Translations under genes and position numbers: made by a program
In this document: positions 47,057 through 53,879 of the stretch, piece after piece
Numbering within the stretch: position 1 is the stretch's first letter
Layout: each line of letters begins with the position of its first letter
NCBI RefSeq assembly: GCF_024806495.1
Contig: NZ_JANUFF010000002.1
Span: forward strand, 248,001-312,000
DNA from: Chryseobacterium sp. JUb7
GTDB lineage: Bacteria > Bacteroidota > Bacteroidia > Flavobacteriales > Weeksellaceae
Length of the DNA stretch: 64,000 nt
Direction of reading: 5' to 3'
The notes under the pieces: model-generated
The model's database searches: none
The model's input: the letters and a program-made list of their open reading frames with translations, nothing else
Told to the model about the DNA's origin: nothing

Positions 47057-47791
47057 TTATGAAAAAACCTTTAAAAAATTATCTTTAAAACTGCCTGAAA
47101 TCTCAATTTCAGTGCTGTCAGAAAGTGTTGCCGTTCCGCTTTTATGGTAAGATTTCACAAAATTGGTGTTGATAATATGTGAACGGTGAACTCTTACAAA
47201 CGGGTTTTCCAGTAAGTCATCGAAATGCTTTAAAAATCTACACACCATCTTTTTAGAACCATCCGTAAGATAAACCTGTGTAAAGTTTCCATCGGCCTGC
47301 AACCTAAGAATATCTTCCGTTTTCACGACATCAAAACCCTGCAAAGTAGGCAGTATCAATTGCTGTTTTTCGGGTTTCAGCTTTAAATTTTCGAGTAGCA
47401 CTTTATTCCGGTTAAGCTCTTCTTTGCTTTCAATACTTTCAGCCACTTTATTTACAGCTACAATCAGTTCCTGAATATCAATAGGCTTTAAAATATAATA
47501 ACTTGCAGATTTATTCAGAGCCTGTAGAGAATATTGTGAAAATGCTGTTATAAAAATTGTTTCGTAAGAAAATTCTTTTGTAGCTTCCAATACATCAAAA
47601 GCATTTCCAAACGGCATCTCAACATCCAAAAATACCAGTTGTGGCTGTTTTTCAGCAATTAAAGGAACAGCCTCTTTAATATTTTCGGCTTCTCCTAAAA
47701 TTTCAATTTGCGGACAGTATTTTGTGAGGTAATTTCTCAAAACATCTCTGGCAATAGCTTCATCATCTACAATGACGGATCTTATTTTCAT
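47057..47791 (-). CDS. LytTR-family response regulator
   Basis: A 244-aa regulator. The receiver domain (MKIRSVIVDDEAIARDVL) has the acid pocket D9/D10, the phospho-acceptor D56 and K102-type lysine in LKPID. The LytTR DNA-binding domain runs from ~145 (ILRLQADGNFTQVYLTDGSKKMV, RVHRSHIINTNFVKSY). It is the third gene of an operon with the sensor kinase and a secreted protein. LytTR proteins bind paired ~10-bp direct repeats one or two turns apart; matching repeats lie at 50359-50389 and 51910-51940. Confidence 0.92.
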   Translation of the reverse strand: MKIRSVIVDDEAIARDVLRNYLTKYCPQIEILGEAENIKEAVPLIAEKQPQLVFLDVEMPFGNAFDVLEATKEFSYETIFITAFSQYSLQALNKSASYYILKPIDIQELIVAVNKVAESIESKEELNRNKVLLENLKLKPEKQQLILPTLQGFDVVKTEDILRLQADGNFTQVYLTDGSKKMVCRFLKHFDDLLENPFVRVHRSHIINTNFVKSYHKSGTATLSDSTEIEISGSFKDNFLKVFS

Positions 47792-47810: not shown

Positions 47811-48524
47811 TTATTTATACATTCCGTTACTGAATTTTAGCACTCGGGAGGTTGTTTTCATTTTTTCAACATCTTTGCAGTCTCCGTCTACCTCTTTATT
47901 TACGGTACTGGTCGTCTTTGTTTTGATAATAAGATCAGTAAAACTGTTTGTTTTTGCTTTATCAATCATAATGACAGACGTTTCATCTTCAAATTCTCCA
48001 GCACAGTTGGTATCCCATTCCCCATGACTCTGACTTAGATTAAACTCACCAAGAATTTTCTTTAATGTCTGACTGACCGGATAATAAAGAGAAATATCTT
48101 CTGATGAATACGGATTGGGTCTGCTGCTGCCTTCAAAATATATCTTTACCCCAAAAGCGCGAATATTCTGACTGATATTATATAAACCCGTATCTATTTT
48201 TATACTGCTCAATCTTATGGCGTCCGATGTAACCTCTCTGGGATCAAGATATTTATTTTTAATATTTCCCTTCTCATCGCTAATCAGTATATAATTCTGA
48301 ACCGTAAAAAAATCTTCTTCATAATCCCCTATTAATACAGGAACCACAACGATATAAGAATCTTCGGCGTACGGCATTTTCTTTTCTGTACAGAAATCAT
48401 TTTTAATTCTTGACCGATCAATCTTCAAACTTCTTATAATATTTTCAAAACGAGTAGAATTAATTTCCTGAGCATTTAAAACATTCGCCACCAGAAGAAC
48501 AAAAACGAATAAAATTTTCTTCAC
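47811..48524 (-). CDS. Secreted protein encoded between kinase and regulator
   Basis: A 237-aa protein with signal peptide MKKILFVFVLLVANVLNAQ. The mature part is beta-rich, with three cysteines (FCTEKK, NCAG, DCKD). It lies 9 bp after the kinase stop and 19 bp before the regulator start, so all three are co-expressed. A periplasmic signal modulator for the kinase or an output of the pathway are both plausible. I recognise no family. Confidence 0.75.
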   Translation of the reverse strand: MKKILFVFVLLVANVLNAQEINSTRFENIIRSLKIDRSRIKNDFCTEKKMPYAEDSYIVVVPVLIGDYEEDFFTVQNYILISDEKGNIKNKYLDPREVTSDAIRLSSIKIDTGLYNISQNIRAFGVKIYFEGSSRPNPYSSEDISLYYPVSQTLKKILGEFNLSQSHGEWDTNCAGEFEDETSVIMIDKAKTNSFTDLIIKTKTTSTVNKEVDGDCKDVEKMKTTSRVLKFSNGMYK

Positions 48525-48533
48525 TTTAATTTT

Positions 48534-50318
48534 TTATTTGATGTTAGTTAAATTAATTTTTATTGTAACCTTCACGCCATTATTATTTTCTTTATCATTG
48601 ATTAAGCATGTGATATCCTTTTTATACAGATCATTCAAAAGCTGAATTCGCTCCAGTGTATTTTTCATCCCACGACCTTCCCTATTTTTTTGATGAACTG
48701 TTTTCTGCTTTTTACTTTCCTTGATTCCGATACCGTTATCTTCAATTCTAATTTTCAAATGCTGATTATCCTTTTCAAAGCTTAGTTTTAAAAATCCTTT
48801 AGTCGTTCTGTAACGAAGTCCATGCCAGATTGCATTTTCCAAAAATGGCTGTACCAACATTCCGGGAACTTTTAAACTTTGCACATTCAGATCTTCATCA
48901 AACGTAATTTCATAATCGAATTTATCTGCAAAACGGGTTTTTTCCAGAGCCAGATAATTTTGCAGCAAATCCAACTCCTGTTGAAACGGAATAAAGTCTT
49001 CGGTAGAATTTTCCATTACCCCACGCATTAATTTTGAAAACTTTGTTAAATACTGATTGGCCTCCAGCTCATTATTGGTTGCAATAAAATGATTAACACT
49101 ATTTAAGCTGTTAAAAATAAAGTGCGGATTCATTTCGCGGCGAAGGGACTGCAAAGCAATTTTTTTATTTTTAATCTGAACTTTCTTTAATGTTCTGAAA
49201 ATAAAGATCACTAAACACGTTAATATAATCAACACGCCAATCAAACTGTAGTTGAAAACATTTTTCTTTCGGATCAACTCATCTTTTAACGCTCTCTCCT
49301 TCTCCAGCTGTGAAATCCGTTCTTCGGTATCTTCCAAAATTTTCTGATCTACAAGACTTTTATCTTTTGATACCAAATCCGGTAATTTCCCAAGAAAATC
49401 CCGGTACAGCTGCATCGAAGCATCTATATTCTGTGAAATCGCATAAAGACTGTCAAGCCTTTTTACACTTTTCTGAGCTTCCAGCGTATGCCCTTTCTGC
49501 AAGGCTATTCCATATGCATTTTTCAACAAGTTGATGGCTTCATCCGGATCATTTTTTTTGATATAAATATCTGCCAATTCCTGAATCTGATTAACATTTT
49601 CCTGAGAATTATCTTTAACAAAATCTTCTTTTAAAACCTTTTTTTTTGCTTCAATAGCTTTATCAAATTTTTTGTTTTCAACATAGAAATTGGTTAACTT
49701 CTGATTGATTTCCAATGCCTGTTGCGGAGCCTCTTTTTTGGAAATTTTATAGGCATTTTTTAAATTTTCTTCTGCTTTCGGAATATTTTTCTCCTGAATA
49801 TTCACATCCGCCATCTGGCTGTAACCTGCTGCCAGATCGCCACTATTATTATCTTTCTGACTTATTTCTATATTATTCTGAATCGCTTCTGCTTTTATTT
49901 CCGGTGAAGTAGAAGAAAGCCTTGCTGCATCATTGGAATTTACACTTTTGCTTTTAGAACTTACTTCTGCTGCACGGCTGTAATTGCTTATGGCAGGCGT
50001 AATTTTATTCTGTTTTTCCTGAGACTGGGCCAGTTTTCGGCTTACTTTTTCAATATTGGATTTATCATTAAGTTTTTCATAGATATTTTTTGCCCGGGTA
50101 TAATATTCTTCACTTTTAGAAAAATTTCCATCGTTGAAAAAAGTTTCACCGATATTAAAATAAGAATCGGCCTGCGCAGATTCATTTTTGCTGCTTACTG
50201 CCTTTTTCAGTTTTTTACTTTGGGTCTGAACTTCCTGTACAACATTAGCACTCTGAGAATATAAATTATTCACAAAAAGGACGAACAGAAATACAATAAA
50301 CAGTTGAAACACTTTCAT
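48534..50318 (-). CDS. TPR-containing LytS-type sensor histidine kinase
   Basis: A 594-aa protein from the ATG at 50318 (signal peptide MKVFQLFIVFLFVLFVNNLYSQ); an extension to 50387 would run through the regulatory region. A periplasmic TPR array (~35-315), a coiled coil, one membrane helix at ~354-374, then the His_kinase domain RREMNPHFIFNSLNSVNHF (H399) and HATPase motifs (ENAIWHGL, IEDNGIGI, GRGMKNTLERI). It should phosphorylate the LytTR regulator encoded two genes downstream. Confidence 0.9.
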   Translation of the reverse strand: MKVFQLFIVFLFVLFVNNLYSQSANVVQEVQTQSKKLKKAVSSKNESAQADSYFNIGETFFNDGNFSKSEEYYTRAKNIYEKLNDKSNIEKVSRKLAQSQEKQNKITPAISNYSRAAEVSSKSKSVNSNDAARLSSTSPEIKAEAIQNNIEISQKDNNSGDLAAGYSQMADVNIQEKNIPKAEENLKNAYKISKKEAPQQALEINQKLTNFYVENKKFDKAIEAKKKVLKEDFVKDNSQENVNQIQELADIYIKKNDPDEAINLLKNAYGIALQKGHTLEAQKSVKRLDSLYAISQNIDASMQLYRDFLGKLPDLVSKDKSLVDQKILEDTEERISQLEKERALKDELIRKKNVFNYSLIGVLIILTCLVIFIFRTLKKVQIKNKKIALQSLRREMNPHFIFNSLNSVNHFIATNNELEANQYLTKFSKLMRGVMENSTEDFIPFQQELDLLQNYLALEKTRFADKFDYEITFDEDLNVQSLKVPGMLVQPFLENAIWHGLRYRTTKGFLKLSFEKDNQHLKIRIEDNGIGIKESKKQKTVHQKNREGRGMKNTLERIQLLNDLYKKDITCLINDKENNNGVKVTIKINLTNIK

Positions 50319-50358
50319 AAAACAAAGATATACATATATATAGTTTGCCCAAAAACTA

Positions 50359-50389
50359 TTCACCAAGTGAAAGAATGCATTCACCAAGT
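50359..50389. promoter_or_regulatory. Predicted LytTR-regulator site A (paired direct repeat)
   Basis: TTCACCAAGT occurs at 50359-50368 and 50380-50389: period 21 bp, two DNA turns. The second copy ends 27 bp before the -7 box TAATTTTG (50417-50424). An identical arrangement recurs at 51910-51940. LytTR proteins bind paired direct repeats with this geometry as activators. Confidence 0.75.
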
Positions 50390-50416
50390 TCAGATATTCT
50401 CGCCTGTTCTGAGGAC

Positions 50417-50424
50417 TAATTTTG
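50417..50424 (+). promoter_or_regulatory. -7 box of the SIMPL gene at 50449
   Basis: TAATTTTG fits TAnnTTTG exactly. No -33 TTTG is seen, as expected for an activator-dependent promoter. Confidence 0.65.
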
Positions 50425-50448
50425 TAGAATCATTCAAACTTAATCATC

Positions 50449-51441
50449 ATGAAAAACATTTTATGCTTGGCTTCGGCTTTACTATTTCAATTTTCCTATT
50501 CGCAAATGTCGGGGAACATTAATTACAGAAACCAGGTTCAATATTCCGACAGCAATATCAATGTAGCAACTCCCGTCGTAAATCCTGTTGCCAATGAAAA
50601 TATCATCAGTGTAAAAGCATTGGCCAATGTAAAAGCCGAGCAGTATGTTGCTATTTTCAGCATTACTCAAGTTGGCGAAAATGCAGAGGAAGTCAATGAT
50701 TTAATCGATAAGCGCATCAATACTTCACTGGCTCAGATAAAATCAACGAAAGGCGTCGAGACGTATATTGATATGATTTCTTTTGTTCCCGTCTATCAAT
50801 ATAATGTTGAGAAAAAAATATTCAGTAAAAAAACATACAATGAAGTTCCTGCCGGATTTGAATTAAAGAAAAACCTGCACATTAAATTTACAGATCCTTC
50901 TCAGATGAATGAATTTATTTCTATCCTATCCAAAAATGAAATTTACGACCTCGTTCGGGTAGACTATTTCTCCACAACAATGGAAGCAATCCGAAAAGAG
51001 CTGATGAATAAGGCTAAAATTGCACTCCAGGAAAAAGTAAAAAATTTTGAAGTCATTCTTGGTGAAAGCTTTACCACTGCCACAAAAAATATCAGTGATG
51101 GGTACAGAGTTTCCCTTCCCACAGAGATGTATAAATCTTATGAAGCCTACAACAGCTCCTCAATGGCATTAAGCAAATTTTCGAATGTCAATCAGGTCAA
51201 CAAATCCACGACCTCCTATTATCAGCCGATTTTAGATAAAGAATTTGATTTTGTCATTAATCCGGTGATTCATGAACCCGTTATTCAGGTGATGTATGAA
51301 ATAAAACTTACGATCAACAGAGAGAAGGAAAAAGATAAAGACAAGAAGGCTGAAACTAAAGAAATGAAAGAAATCAACCATTATATTTTGATTACTCCCA
51401 ATGGAGAAGTTAAAAATTTAAATCTCCTCACAAAACCTTAA
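50449..51441 (+). CDS. SIMPL-domain-like secreted protein (predicted LytTR target)
   Basis: A 330-aa protein with signal peptide MKNILCLASALLFQFSYS. The body has features of the SIMPL/DUF541 fold: VKALANVKAEQYVAIFSITQVGENAEEVNDLIDKRI, then an Ala-rich helix IRKELMNKAKIALQEKVKNFEVILGE. The C-terminal ~40 residues are Lys/Glu-rich. SIMPL proteins are periplasmic stress-related factors of unclear mechanism. It lies directly downstream of repeat site A and is divergent from the sensor kinase operon. Confidence 0.75.
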   Translation: MKNILCLASALLFQFSYSQMSGNINYRNQVQYSDSNINVATPVVNPVANENIISVKALANVKAEQYVAIFSITQVGENAEEVNDLIDKRINTSLAQIKSTKGVETYIDMISFVPVYQYNVEKKIFSKKTYNEVPAGFELKKNLHIKFTDPSQMNEFISILSKNEIYDLVRVDYFSTTMEAIRKELMNKAKIALQEKVKNFEVILGESFTTATKNISDGYRVSLPTEMYKSYEAYNSSSMALSKFSNVNQVNKSTTSYYQPILDKEFDFVINPVIHEPVIQVMYEIKLTINREKEKDKDKKAETKEMKEINHYILITPNGEVKNLNLLTKP

Positions 51442-51484
51442 TATAAATTGAGATTCCGTTAACAGTCAACGCATTATAATTAAT

Positions 51485-51492
51485 TACATTTG
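51485..51492 (+). promoter_or_regulatory. -7 box of the lipoprotein gene at 51512
   Basis: TACATTTG fits TAnnTTTG. The ATG at 51512 follows 19 bp later. No TTCACCAAGT repeat is seen here, so this gene may be expressed independently. Confidence 0.5.
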
Positions 51493-51511
51493 TGAATACA
51501 CAACTATTACT

Positions 51512-51865
51512 ATGAAAAAGTCTTTACATTTCCTCATTCTATCGGCATTATTGCTTCAGAGCTGTTCGTTTCTCGAGCAAAACAGGTTTATTGAAACCAA
51601 AATTATTTCCAACACTTTGAATGAGCAGATTATTTACAAATACTATCAGACTGGTCTGGACAATTATAAAGTTGATTTTTATTCTGTCAATCAATCGGAT
51701 TCTGTAAAACTGTTCGAGCATTTTGTCCATGATGCTCTTTTCAGCTCCAATACCTACCGGATTTCCGAAAATGAAAATGAGATCATTATAAGAACCAAAT
51801 TATTTTCCAAAGAAAAAAAGCTCATTACCCGAAACGGAAAATCAATTATAATGACTAACCGATAA
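51512..51865 (+). CDS. Small lipoprotein
   Basis: A 117-aa lipoprotein (MKKSLHFLILSALLLQSC lipobox) with a short beta-rich mature part. It lies between the two SIMPL genes and is followed by its own terminator. I recognise no family; co-function with the neighbouring envelope proteins is inferred from position only. Confidence 0.7.
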   Translation: MKKSLHFLILSALLLQSCSFLEQNRFIETKIISNTLNEQIIYKYYQTGLDNYKVDFYSVNQSDSVKLFEHFVHDALFSSNTYRISENENEIIIRTKLFSKEKKLITRNGKSIIMTNR

Positions 51866-51871
51866 ATATCC

Positions 51872-51897
51872 AAACAGTTCTCAGGAACTGTTTTTTT
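51872..51897 (+). terminator. Intrinsic terminator of the small lipoprotein gene
   Basis: The stem AAACAGTTC/GAACTGTTT with loop TCAG and a T-run right after it. Confidence 0.85.
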
Positions 51898-51909
51898 ATG
51901 TACCGAAGA

Positions 51910-51940
51910 TTCACCAAGTCAAACTTCCCTTTCACCAAGT
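51910..51940. promoter_or_regulatory. Predicted LytTR-regulator site B (paired direct repeat)
   Basis: TTCACCAAGT at 51910-51919 and 51931-51940, again a 21-bp period. The second copy ends 27 bp before TAATTTTA (51968-51975), a -7 box with one mismatch. Spacing to the -7 box is identical to site A. Confidence 0.75.
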
Positions 51941-52007
51941 CTCCAAAATTCCATGCTTAATTCTGGGTAATTTTACTCTAGAAGTTTAAAATTTAAAACA
52001 AAATAGT

Positions 52008-52685
52008 ATGAAATTGAAACATTTTTTATTGATCGGATTATTAACATTTGGAAGTCTGATCAATGCACAGGAAATCAAGAAAAATGCAATCGAAGTAACA
52101 GGTGTTGCTGAAATGGAAGTAGAACCGGATGAAATTATCTTTAATATCGGAATAAAAGCAGATAACAAAAATGATCTGGCTGACAATGAAAAGAAATTAT
52201 TTGAAACACTCAAAAATAACGGTGTTAAAAATGAAGATATCAAGTTTAAATCCATGTATCAGAATCTGTACTCAAAGACCACAAAGTTTACGAAAAACTT
52301 TCAGTTTAAAGTGAATGCAAAAACCAATGTAAGTAAGCTTTTTGAAGATTTAAATCAAAAATGGGTCACCAATCTGAATATTTCGGAAGTTAAAAATACG
52401 AAGATTGCAGATTTTAGAAAAACGGTTAAAATCAATGCTTTAAAAGCAGCAAGAGAAAAAGCTGATTATCTTCTTGAAAGTATTGGTAAAAAAACAGGAA
52501 ACCCGATTGAGATTGTAGAAATTGAAGATTATATGAGTGATACAATTGTTCCTATGGCTTATAAATCTGCAAAAATGAGCAATGTTCAGCTGGAATCTGC
52601 GGATGCAGGAGTAGATTATTCTTTTGATAATATCGAAAATATCAAACTGAAATACAGCATCAAAACAAGATATGAAATCCTATAA
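52008..52685 (+). CDS. SIMPL-domain (DUF541) periplasmic protein (predicted LytTR target)
   Basis: A 225-aa protein with signal peptide MKLKHFLLIGLLTFGSLINAQ. It has a canonical SIMPL domain: IEVTGVAEMEVEPDEIIFNIGIKADNKNDLADNEKKLFETLKNNGV and later ALKAAREKADYLLESIGKKTGNPIEI. It lies 67 bp downstream of repeat site B and 12 bp before the VWA gene, so the two form an operon. Confidence 0.88.
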   Translation: MKLKHFLLIGLLTFGSLINAQEIKKNAIEVTGVAEMEVEPDEIIFNIGIKADNKNDLADNEKKLFETLKNNGVKNEDIKFKSMYQNLYSKTTKFTKNFQFKVNAKTNVSKLFEDLNQKWVTNLNISEVKNTKIADFRKTVKINALKAAREKADYLLESIGKKTGNPIEIVEIEDYMSDTIVPMAYKSAKMSNVQLESADAGVDYSFDNIENIKLKYSIKTRYEIL

Positions 52686-52697
52686 ACACAAAAGATC

Positions 52698-53879
52698 ATG
52701 ACAACTATTAAAATTTTAGCATTGACGTTGGGAGCTACTGCTTTTTTTAATGCTCAGGGTCCTATTCATCATGGTAAGCCATTGGTAAGAAGAGATATTG
52801 TTCAAAATGAATCTTCCAGATCATCGGGTAAAGAAAATAAAATTCAGGTCGCTTTGCTTTTAGACACCTCAAACAGTATGGATGGCTTGATTGATCAGGC
52901 AAAATCCAGACTCTGGAATATCGTAAATACGCTGACAACCTTGAAATATAACGGACAGTCTCCTCAGGTGGAAATAGCGCTCTATGAATACGGAAATGAC
53001 GGATTGAAAGACGAAAATTACATCAGGGAGGTTACACCGCTTACCCAGGATCTTGATTTGGTTTCAGAGAAATTATTTGCTTTAAGAACCAACGGAGGAA
53101 GTGAATATTGTGGAGCTGTAATCCGTGATGCCTCAAATAATCTAAATTGGGACAGCAATGAAAAAAGCATGAAATTAATCTATATTGCCGGAAATGAACC
53201 TTTCGATCAGGGAAAAATCAATTATAAGGAAGTTATTTCGAATGCCAAAAGAAAAAACATTTATACCAACACTATTTTCTGCGGAAACAGAGAGGAAGGT
53301 ATTCAAACATTCTGGCAAAACGGAGCCGCCGTAGGAGATGGAAAATTTTTCAATATAGACAGTGACAGAAAAGTAATCTATATTGAAACGCCTTATGACA
53401 TCAGAATCTCCGAATGCAATGCAAAACTTAATGATACCTATATTTATTATGGAAGCCGGGGTTCGGAATATAAAACCAAGCAAATAGCCCAAGACAGGAA
53501 CGCAGAAGTTCAGTCTGCAGCCAACGCTGTTGAAAGAACGGTCGCTAAGTCTAAAAAAAATGCTTATAAAAATGACCATTGGGATCTGGTAGATAAAGCC
53601 GAAAAAGATAAAGGCTACATTTCAGGCATTAAACAGGAAGAATTACCTTCCGAACTGAAAGGGAAAAGTAATACTGAAATTCAGAAAATTGTAGCTCAAA
53701 AATCATCTGACCGCGAGAAAATTCAACGAGAAATTGAAGAACTCTCTAAAAAACGTCAGGATTTTATTGATACCGAGATAAAAAAAAGAGGAAGTAATGA
53801 GGCTGACGACCTTGGAAAAGCGATTGAAAAATCAATCCACGAACTGGGAAAGAAAAACGGATACCGTTTTTCTATATAA
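52698..53879 (+). CDS. VWA-domain secreted protein
   Basis: A 393-aa protein with a signal peptide (IKILALTLGATAFFNAQ). The von Willebrand factor A domain has the metal site DTSNSMDGL (DxSxS) and the later FALRTNGGSEYCGAVIRDA. The C-terminal third is a charged helical region with KSSDREKIQREIEELSKKRQDFID. It is co-transcribed with the SIMPL gene and is therefore a likely member of the LytTR regulon. Confidence 0.85.
   Translation: MTTIKILALTLGATAFFNAQGPIHHGKPLVRRDIVQNESSRSSGKENKIQVALLLDTSNSMDGLIDQAKSRLWNIVNTLTTLKYNGQSPQVEIALYEYGNDGLKDENYIREVTPLTQDLDLVSEKLFALRTNGGSEYCGAVIRDASNNLNWDSNEKSMKLIYIAGNEPFDQGKINYKEVISNAKRKNIYTNTIFCGNREEGIQTFWQNGAAVGDGKFFNIDSDRKVIYIETPYDIRISECNAKLNDTYIYYGSRGSEYKTKQIAQDRNAEVQSAANAVERTVAKSKKNAYKNDHWDLVDKAEKDKGYISGIKQEELPSELKGKSNTEIQKIVAQKSSDREKIQREIEELSKKRQDFIDTEIKKRGSNEADDLGKAIEKSIHELGKKNGYRFSI

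Follow-up and report, generated by a model that had tools for sequence, protein, structure and literature searches.

LytS-type sensors are multi-spanning membrane sensors (5TM_5TMR_LYT), and YpdA of Escherichia coli carries such a sensor, whereas the kinase described here has TPR repeats. In systems of the HdrRM type, a LytTR regulator without a receiver domain is encoded together with a membrane inhibitor. According to PMC4847170 (excerpt), LytTR proteins bind repeats of 9-11 nt separated by spacers of 11-13 nt; in the yhjX promoter, E. coli YpdB recognises GGCATTTCAT, a 10-nt direct repeat whose two copies are 11 nt apart in the printed probe, giving a 21-bp period. Direct repeats with 11-13 nt spacers are also described for HdrRM and BrsRM of Streptococcus mutans, where they lie just upstream of the promoter and the operons are autoregulated (PMC6193735, excerpt). 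AgrA of Staphylococcus aureus binds as a dimer to two direct repeats upstream of promoters, and its FhRhHRS motif reads FFRCHNS (PMC4227749, excerpt).

Here we analyse a locus of Chryseobacterium sp. JUb7 within a window of 64,000 nucleotides (the whole stretch of DNA that was analysed). Like the LytS/LytTR pair YpdA/YpdB, it combines a histidine kinase, a REC-LytTR regulator and repeats with a 21-bp period, but it differs in the half-site sequence and in its putative SIMPL/VWA targets, in place of a transporter-like one. The spacing and position of the repeats recall HdrRM/BrsRM, and autoregulation is probable here as well; unlike those pairs of a regulator and a membrane inhibitor, the locus encodes a histidine kinase, and the regulator has, by Pfam, a receiver domain and a kinase partner, which places it outside the HdrRM type. 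With AgrA, the regulator shares an FhRhHRS-type motif in its LytTR domain (FVRVHRS, residues 198-204) and, by prediction, binding as a dimer to paired direct repeats that precede promoters, whereas phylum, targets and half-site sequence are all different. Taken together, the locus is a histidine kinase/LytTR pair with a classic 21-bp direct repeat and, as far as can be judged from sequence, a well-defined new regulon, which was not found among the literature matches listed; its absence from print is not thereby established.

The locus and its two repeat pairs

The initial annotation had reported repeats paired at 50359/50380 and 51910/51931 with a 21-bp period, each pair 27 nt before a TAnnTTT(G/A) box and upstream of a SIMPL gene. 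The sequence bears this out: both pairs (Table 1) are exact, lie on the + strand and have identical half-sites, the distances to the boxes TAATTTTG and TAATTTTA are correct, and Pfam finds SIMPL at 50449-51441 and 52008-52685. Each pair follows the LytTR site rule, with 10 + 11 + 10 nt, and the proposed LytTR-like geometry of paired direct repeats agrees with published LytTR sites (excerpts of PMC4847170 and PMC6193735).

Table 1. Genes, repeat pairs and promoter elements of the locus (window positions).
Feature	Position	Strand	Remarks
Response regulator, REC + LytTR	47057..47791	-	Pfam; predicted repeat-binder
237-aa protein, between kinase and regulator	47811..48524	-	Accessory; no Pfam match
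Sensor histidine kinase, 594 aa from ATG	48534..50318	-	Pfam: TPR repeats + His_kinase + HATPase_c
-7 box TATCTTTG, kinase promoter	50323..50330	-	28 nt from pair 1, opposite side; sequence
Repeat pair 1, TTCACCAAGT-N11-TTCACCAAGT	50359..50389	+	Half-sites 50359-50368 and 50380-50389; exact match; predicted LytTR dimer site common to SIMPL1 and the opposite-strand kinase operon
-7 box TAATTTTG, SIMPL1 promoter	50417..50424	+	Starts 27 nt past pair 1; sequence
SIMPL1 (DUF541)	50449..51441	+	Pfam; N-terminal signal-like sequence; predicted target
117-aa putative lipoprotein (LQSC), between SIMPL1 and SIMPL2	51512..51865	+	Sequence
Terminator-like hairpin, 9 pairs, loop 4, T tail	51872..51893	+	Splits 117-aa gene from SIMPL2 unit
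Repeat pair 2, TTCACCAAGT-N11-TTCACCAAGT	51910..51940	+	Half-sites 51910-51919 and 51931-51940; exact match; predicted LytTR dimer site of the SIMPL2-VWA unit
-7 box TAATTTTA, SIMPL2 promoter	51968..51975	+	Starts 27 nt past pair 2; sequence
SIMPL2 (DUF541)	52008..52685	+	Pfam; predicted target
VWA-domain protein	52698..53879	+	Pfam; 12 nt after SIMPL2

In the regulator, Pfam identifies a Response_reg domain (E 1.2e-16) and a LytTR domain (E 6e-12), each above the cut-off, and the kinase contains a PF06580 His_kinase domain (E 1.4e-21). The earlier description of the operon as a LytS-type kinase with a LytTR regulator thus holds for the regulator and for the catalytic domain of the kinase, but not for the N-terminal part of the latter, in which Pfam gave no match to the multi-spanning membrane sensor 5TM_5TMR_LYT and TPR repeats stand in its place. 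Hence, the kinase is LytS-type in its catalytic domain alone and is not a LytS orthologue. A TTG start at 50387 was considered for the kinase and rejected, since the frame would then span the -7 box of the kinase promoter as well as the repeat pair. The 237-aa protein is encoded between kinase and regulator in 23 of the 97 fetched kinase loci, being absent or replaced elsewhere. Among the best 60 of 159 matches to solved structures, the receiver part was matched and none covered the LytTR part alone.

Together with repeat pair 2, the terminator-like hairpin (one of 8 such sites in the region, against a mean of 4.2 in shuffles) marks SIMPL2-VWA as a unit of its own, and the VWA gene is predicted to share a transcript with SIMPL2. 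As no repeat pair precedes the 117-aa lipoprotein gene, it is predicted to lie outside the regulon in this genome, barring read-through. Signal-like N-termini suggest that the SIMPL, VWA and DUF4139 proteins are exported. On the opposite strand, a TTTG at 50350-50353 precedes the kinase -7 box with a 19-nt spacing.

At up to three mismatches, the window contains pairs 1 and 2 only, while 100 dinucleotide shuffles of it yielded no match. The whole genome (4,952,395 bases in 33 contigs) holds two perfect matches and two with three mismatches, and the reversed control pattern matches it once at ≤3 mismatches. A profile of 85 positions, built from 74 sites of related genomes, recovered pair 2 (E 7.0e-17) and pair 1 (E 2.8e-12) in this genome, followed by a match with E 0.046 and weaker ones. 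With two strong sites genome-wide, the repeats are not a common feature of unrelated promoters. A wide regulon in this genome was considered and ruled out, since matches beyond the two strong ones have E 0.046 or weaker.

Anatomy of the site

Gapless alignment of 101 sequences (100 fetched loci and the window) comprised 261 sites with ≤4 mismatches; the loci were not a random sample, having been taken among the top-listed kinase matches and the motif matches, and sites from related genomes are not independent. Since the sites were selected at ≤4 mismatches, the 20 motif bases themselves are conserved by construction. Conservation extends to columns outside this selection, namely the AAA behind the first half-site (93-97%) as well as the -7 box, and strong conservation is limited to the two half-sites, the AAA, the box and a short segment past it. 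At the -33 position, the site profile of target promoters has only a weak T-rich stretch, with no clear TTTG.

The spacing is narrowly defined. When spacers of 5-30 nt were allowed at ≤3 mismatches in 108 loci, 252 pairs had an 11-nt spacer, against 6 for the next commonest, and 330 of the 333 exact half-sites in these loci were partnered at 21 bp. Among the 257 sites with ≤3 mismatches (four sites above that threshold were dropped), TAnnTTT(G/A) starts 27 nt downstream in 157 and 28 nt downstream in 55. Sites other than those on the kinase side have the box at 27-28 nt in 158 of 159 cases, and those of them before SIMPL2 in 82 of 82; kinase-side sites have a rightward box at this distance in 54 of 98 cases and none in the other 44. 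We define the site as TTCACCAAGT[G/C]AAA-N7-TTCACCAAGT, followed by the box at 27-28 nt.

Distribution of site, kinase and regulator

Within the genus, the motif (≤2 mismatches) is present in 165 of 173 genomes, in which the reversed control motif has seven matches in all at two mismatches, and kinase matches (E 1e-40) are found in the identical set of 165. Only matches with ≤2 mismatches were counted, since those with three are frequent outside kinase-bearing genomes (by hand count in 80 genomes, 69 matches at three mismatches vs 38 control matches at ≤3). The other eight genomes (G012, G013, G108, G110, G152, G155, G159 and G161) lack motif, kinase and SIMPL2 alike, and at E 1e-25 none of their LytTR proteins exceeds 38% identity to the regulator. 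In a tree of 30 genomes built from LipA alone, with weak deep support, the eight are scattered over at least three places, so that the absence is not one event, although the counts are nonetheless non-independent. Moreover, as motif, kinase, regulator and most targets are linked, their co-presence may partly reflect the loss of one locus. The regulator lies close to the kinase in all 97 fetched kinase loci and is 88-97% identical across 94 genus loci.

Pair 1 is kept in the orthologous loci of relatives. SIMPL1 relatives occur in 49 of the 173 genus genomes, with none in the plasmid collection, and in the loci fetched for them a repeat pair (≤5 mismatches) precedes the SIMPL genes. Conservation of the pair at the same genes, as anticipated, is thus seen both in the identical distribution of motif and kinase across the 173 genomes and in the box spacing of 158 of 159 non-kinase sites. 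In three loci, L124 (G126), L139 (G048) and L145 (G154), SIMPL1 appears broken or split, and the pair before it is still recognisable. The highest copy number among the genus genomes searched, five motif copies each (≤2 mismatches), occurs in G094 and G165, which have an expanded set of putative targets.

The genome encodes 13 LytTR domains, so adjacency by itself is insufficient to name the partner of the repeats, and LytTR-like geometry names none either. Conceivably, the repeats are bound by one of the 12 other LytTR domain proteins or by a protein of another family, while the adjacent pair regulates something else. We regard this as improbable, because the eight motif-less genomes lack this particular regulator, yet other LytTR proteins are found there (best 32-38% identity in five of the eight; none at E 1e-25 in G108, G152 and G161), and because the half-sites are changed in G184, where the adjacent regulator has diverged. 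LytTR geometry, shared distribution and this joint change make the adjacent REC-LytTR regulator by far the best candidate for the repeat-binder, and the repeat pair is very probably its binding site.

A diverged site outside the genus

Outside the genus, 72 of the 147 family genomes found were searched, and the motif (≤2 mismatches) was detected in G240, G247, G289, G290 and G232. The first four have the kinase (E <1e-180) and a regulator with 72-85% identity; both are missing from G232, whose match appears fortuitous. The motif thus occurs in four of the five genomes whose regulator reaches 65% identity or more, compared with one of the 67 others searched.

G184, from another genus, encodes a kinase (E 6e-133) and a regulator about 64-65% identical, and has no motif match at ≤2 mismatches. 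In its kinase-VWA gap, both half-sites read TTTACCCATT, again with a 21-bp period, and TAGCTTTG follows the pair after 28 nt, ahead of the VWA gene; the pair is one of three 6-mismatch matches in 20 kb, distinguished by its place and by its mutually identical half-sites. In the LytTR domain of the G184 regulator, residues A166, D167 and R203 are replaced by G, N and K. These three, out of eight flagged positions in residues 140-244, are invariant elsewhere (95/95, 95/95 and 94/94, respectively, plus four proteins from other genera), and R203 aligns with N201 of AgrA, a DNA-contacting residue (PMC4227749, excerpt). Since site and regulator changed together, G184 offers a natural test of LytTR sequence choice. 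The diverged pair of G184 is followed by genes for a VWA protein, an AhpC/TSA-domain protein and a DUF4139 protein (L200:3547-7490), apparently as one unit.

Proposed mode of regulation

The genome scan, the conservation in relatives and the LytTR-like geometry support the interpretation of the repeats as marking a local LytTR regulon. In the explanation that we consider quite probable as a whole, the TPR-containing histidine kinase would phosphorylate the adjacent REC-LytTR regulator (47057-47791), whose dimer would occupy, side by side, the two TTCACCAAGT copies that recur after 21 bp on the same face of the DNA. In Flavobacterium psychrophilum, TAnnTTTG lies at -12 to -5 (PMC9723704, excerpt); if the -7 box were so placed here, the downstream edge of the pair would fall near -40, some 40 bp ahead of the start. 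From there, the regulator would bring RNA polymerase to promoters that combine a good TAnnTTT(G/A) box with a poor -33 element, activating SIMPL1 and the SIMPL2-VWA unit in this genome. As pair 1 also faces the kinase promoter at 28 nt, the kinase-regulator operon would probably be autoregulated.

The sites adjoin the promoter, and TTTG-N19-TAnnTTTG is well matched in the promoter of the kinase; both observations would suit a repressor that blocks polymerase just upstream of the promoter until the kinase signals. We find such a role unlikely, since the presumed start lies about 40 bp beyond the end of the pair, which covers neither it nor the -7 box, target promoters lack a clear TTTG at -33 in the site profile, and LytTR repeats of the HdrRM type sit just upstream of -35 and activate (PMC6193735, excerpt). 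Site position and the poor -33 element together make it likely that the regulator activates rather than represses.

A precise site, a named regulator and a short target list are now available for a two-component system kept in nearly all genus genomes examined, and the role of the putatively exported SIMPL, VWA and DUF4139 proteins becomes accessible to a single deletion and a single binding assay.

Predicted targets and the kinase-side site

To assign genes to the sites, a simple open-frame rule was applied over a distance of 300 nt, and six of the 261 sites received none. The most frequent were SIMPL2 (99), DUF4139/DUF4140 (45) and SIMPL1 (43), followed by an amidohydrolase (19, always without a box), a 191-aa protein (18), VWA (14), the 117-aa lipoprotein (8) and a further VWA family (7), besides single cases; one rhodanese-like protein is among the genes behind sites. 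With so simple an assignment, the gene after a site is not always its target, as the 19 amidohydrolase cases illustrate; in these loci (e.g., L109, L154 and L185), the amidohydrolase gene now adjoins the kinase-side site, and no box lies at 27-28 nt toward it. The output of SIMPL, SIMPL and VWA predicted by the initial annotation stands for this genome but is incomplete genus-wide, where DUF4139, other exported proteins and probably the kinase operon would belong to it too; DUF4139 and the other exported proteins are new here as predicted regulon targets.

SIMPL1 and SIMPL2 fall into one Pfam family and several target promoters are similar downstream of the site, so one might see in the repeats the relics of a promoter segment duplicated along with SIMPL paralogues and retained through descent rather than for binding. 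This is highly improbable given that strong conservation is confined to the half-sites, the AAA, the box and the short stretch after it, that unrelated families (DUF4139, VWA, the 191-aa protein and the rhodanese-like protein) have the site in common, and that the half-sites of G184 are still alike to each other after their change. In keeping with binding by the adjacent regulator, sites are kept at distant targets: the SIMPL-VWA cluster and the kinase are separated by about 2 Mb of the contig in G004 and by about 209 kb in G030, and G247 has a DUF4139 gene, with a perfect site before it, on a contig that does not carry the kinase. Hence, the site tracks its targets, and not the kinase alone.

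On the kinase side, a kinase-facing box lies 27-28 nt from the site in 98 of 98 loci (TAnnTTTG in 78, TTnnTTTG in 20), including the 44 that have no rightward box. Since the kinase-side site faces the kinase promoter at this distance, the kinase-regulator operon is probably autoregulated through it. No site was found near the kinase start of G247 (≤6 mismatches, L201), so autoregulation would not be universal. Tentatively, we speculate that one site, 27-28 nt from boxes on both sides, may drive two divergent promoters, providing feedback on the kinase-regulator operon and switching on an exported SIMPL/VWA/DUF4139 module whose membership varies by species while the control site stays constant, in a form of envelope sensing with a TPR sensor for which no description was seen among the papers retrieved. 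In G247, the DUF4139 gene behind the perfect pair is followed by a gene for an ARPP-1 domain protein (PF20208, E 4.3e-57; L182:10240-11340).
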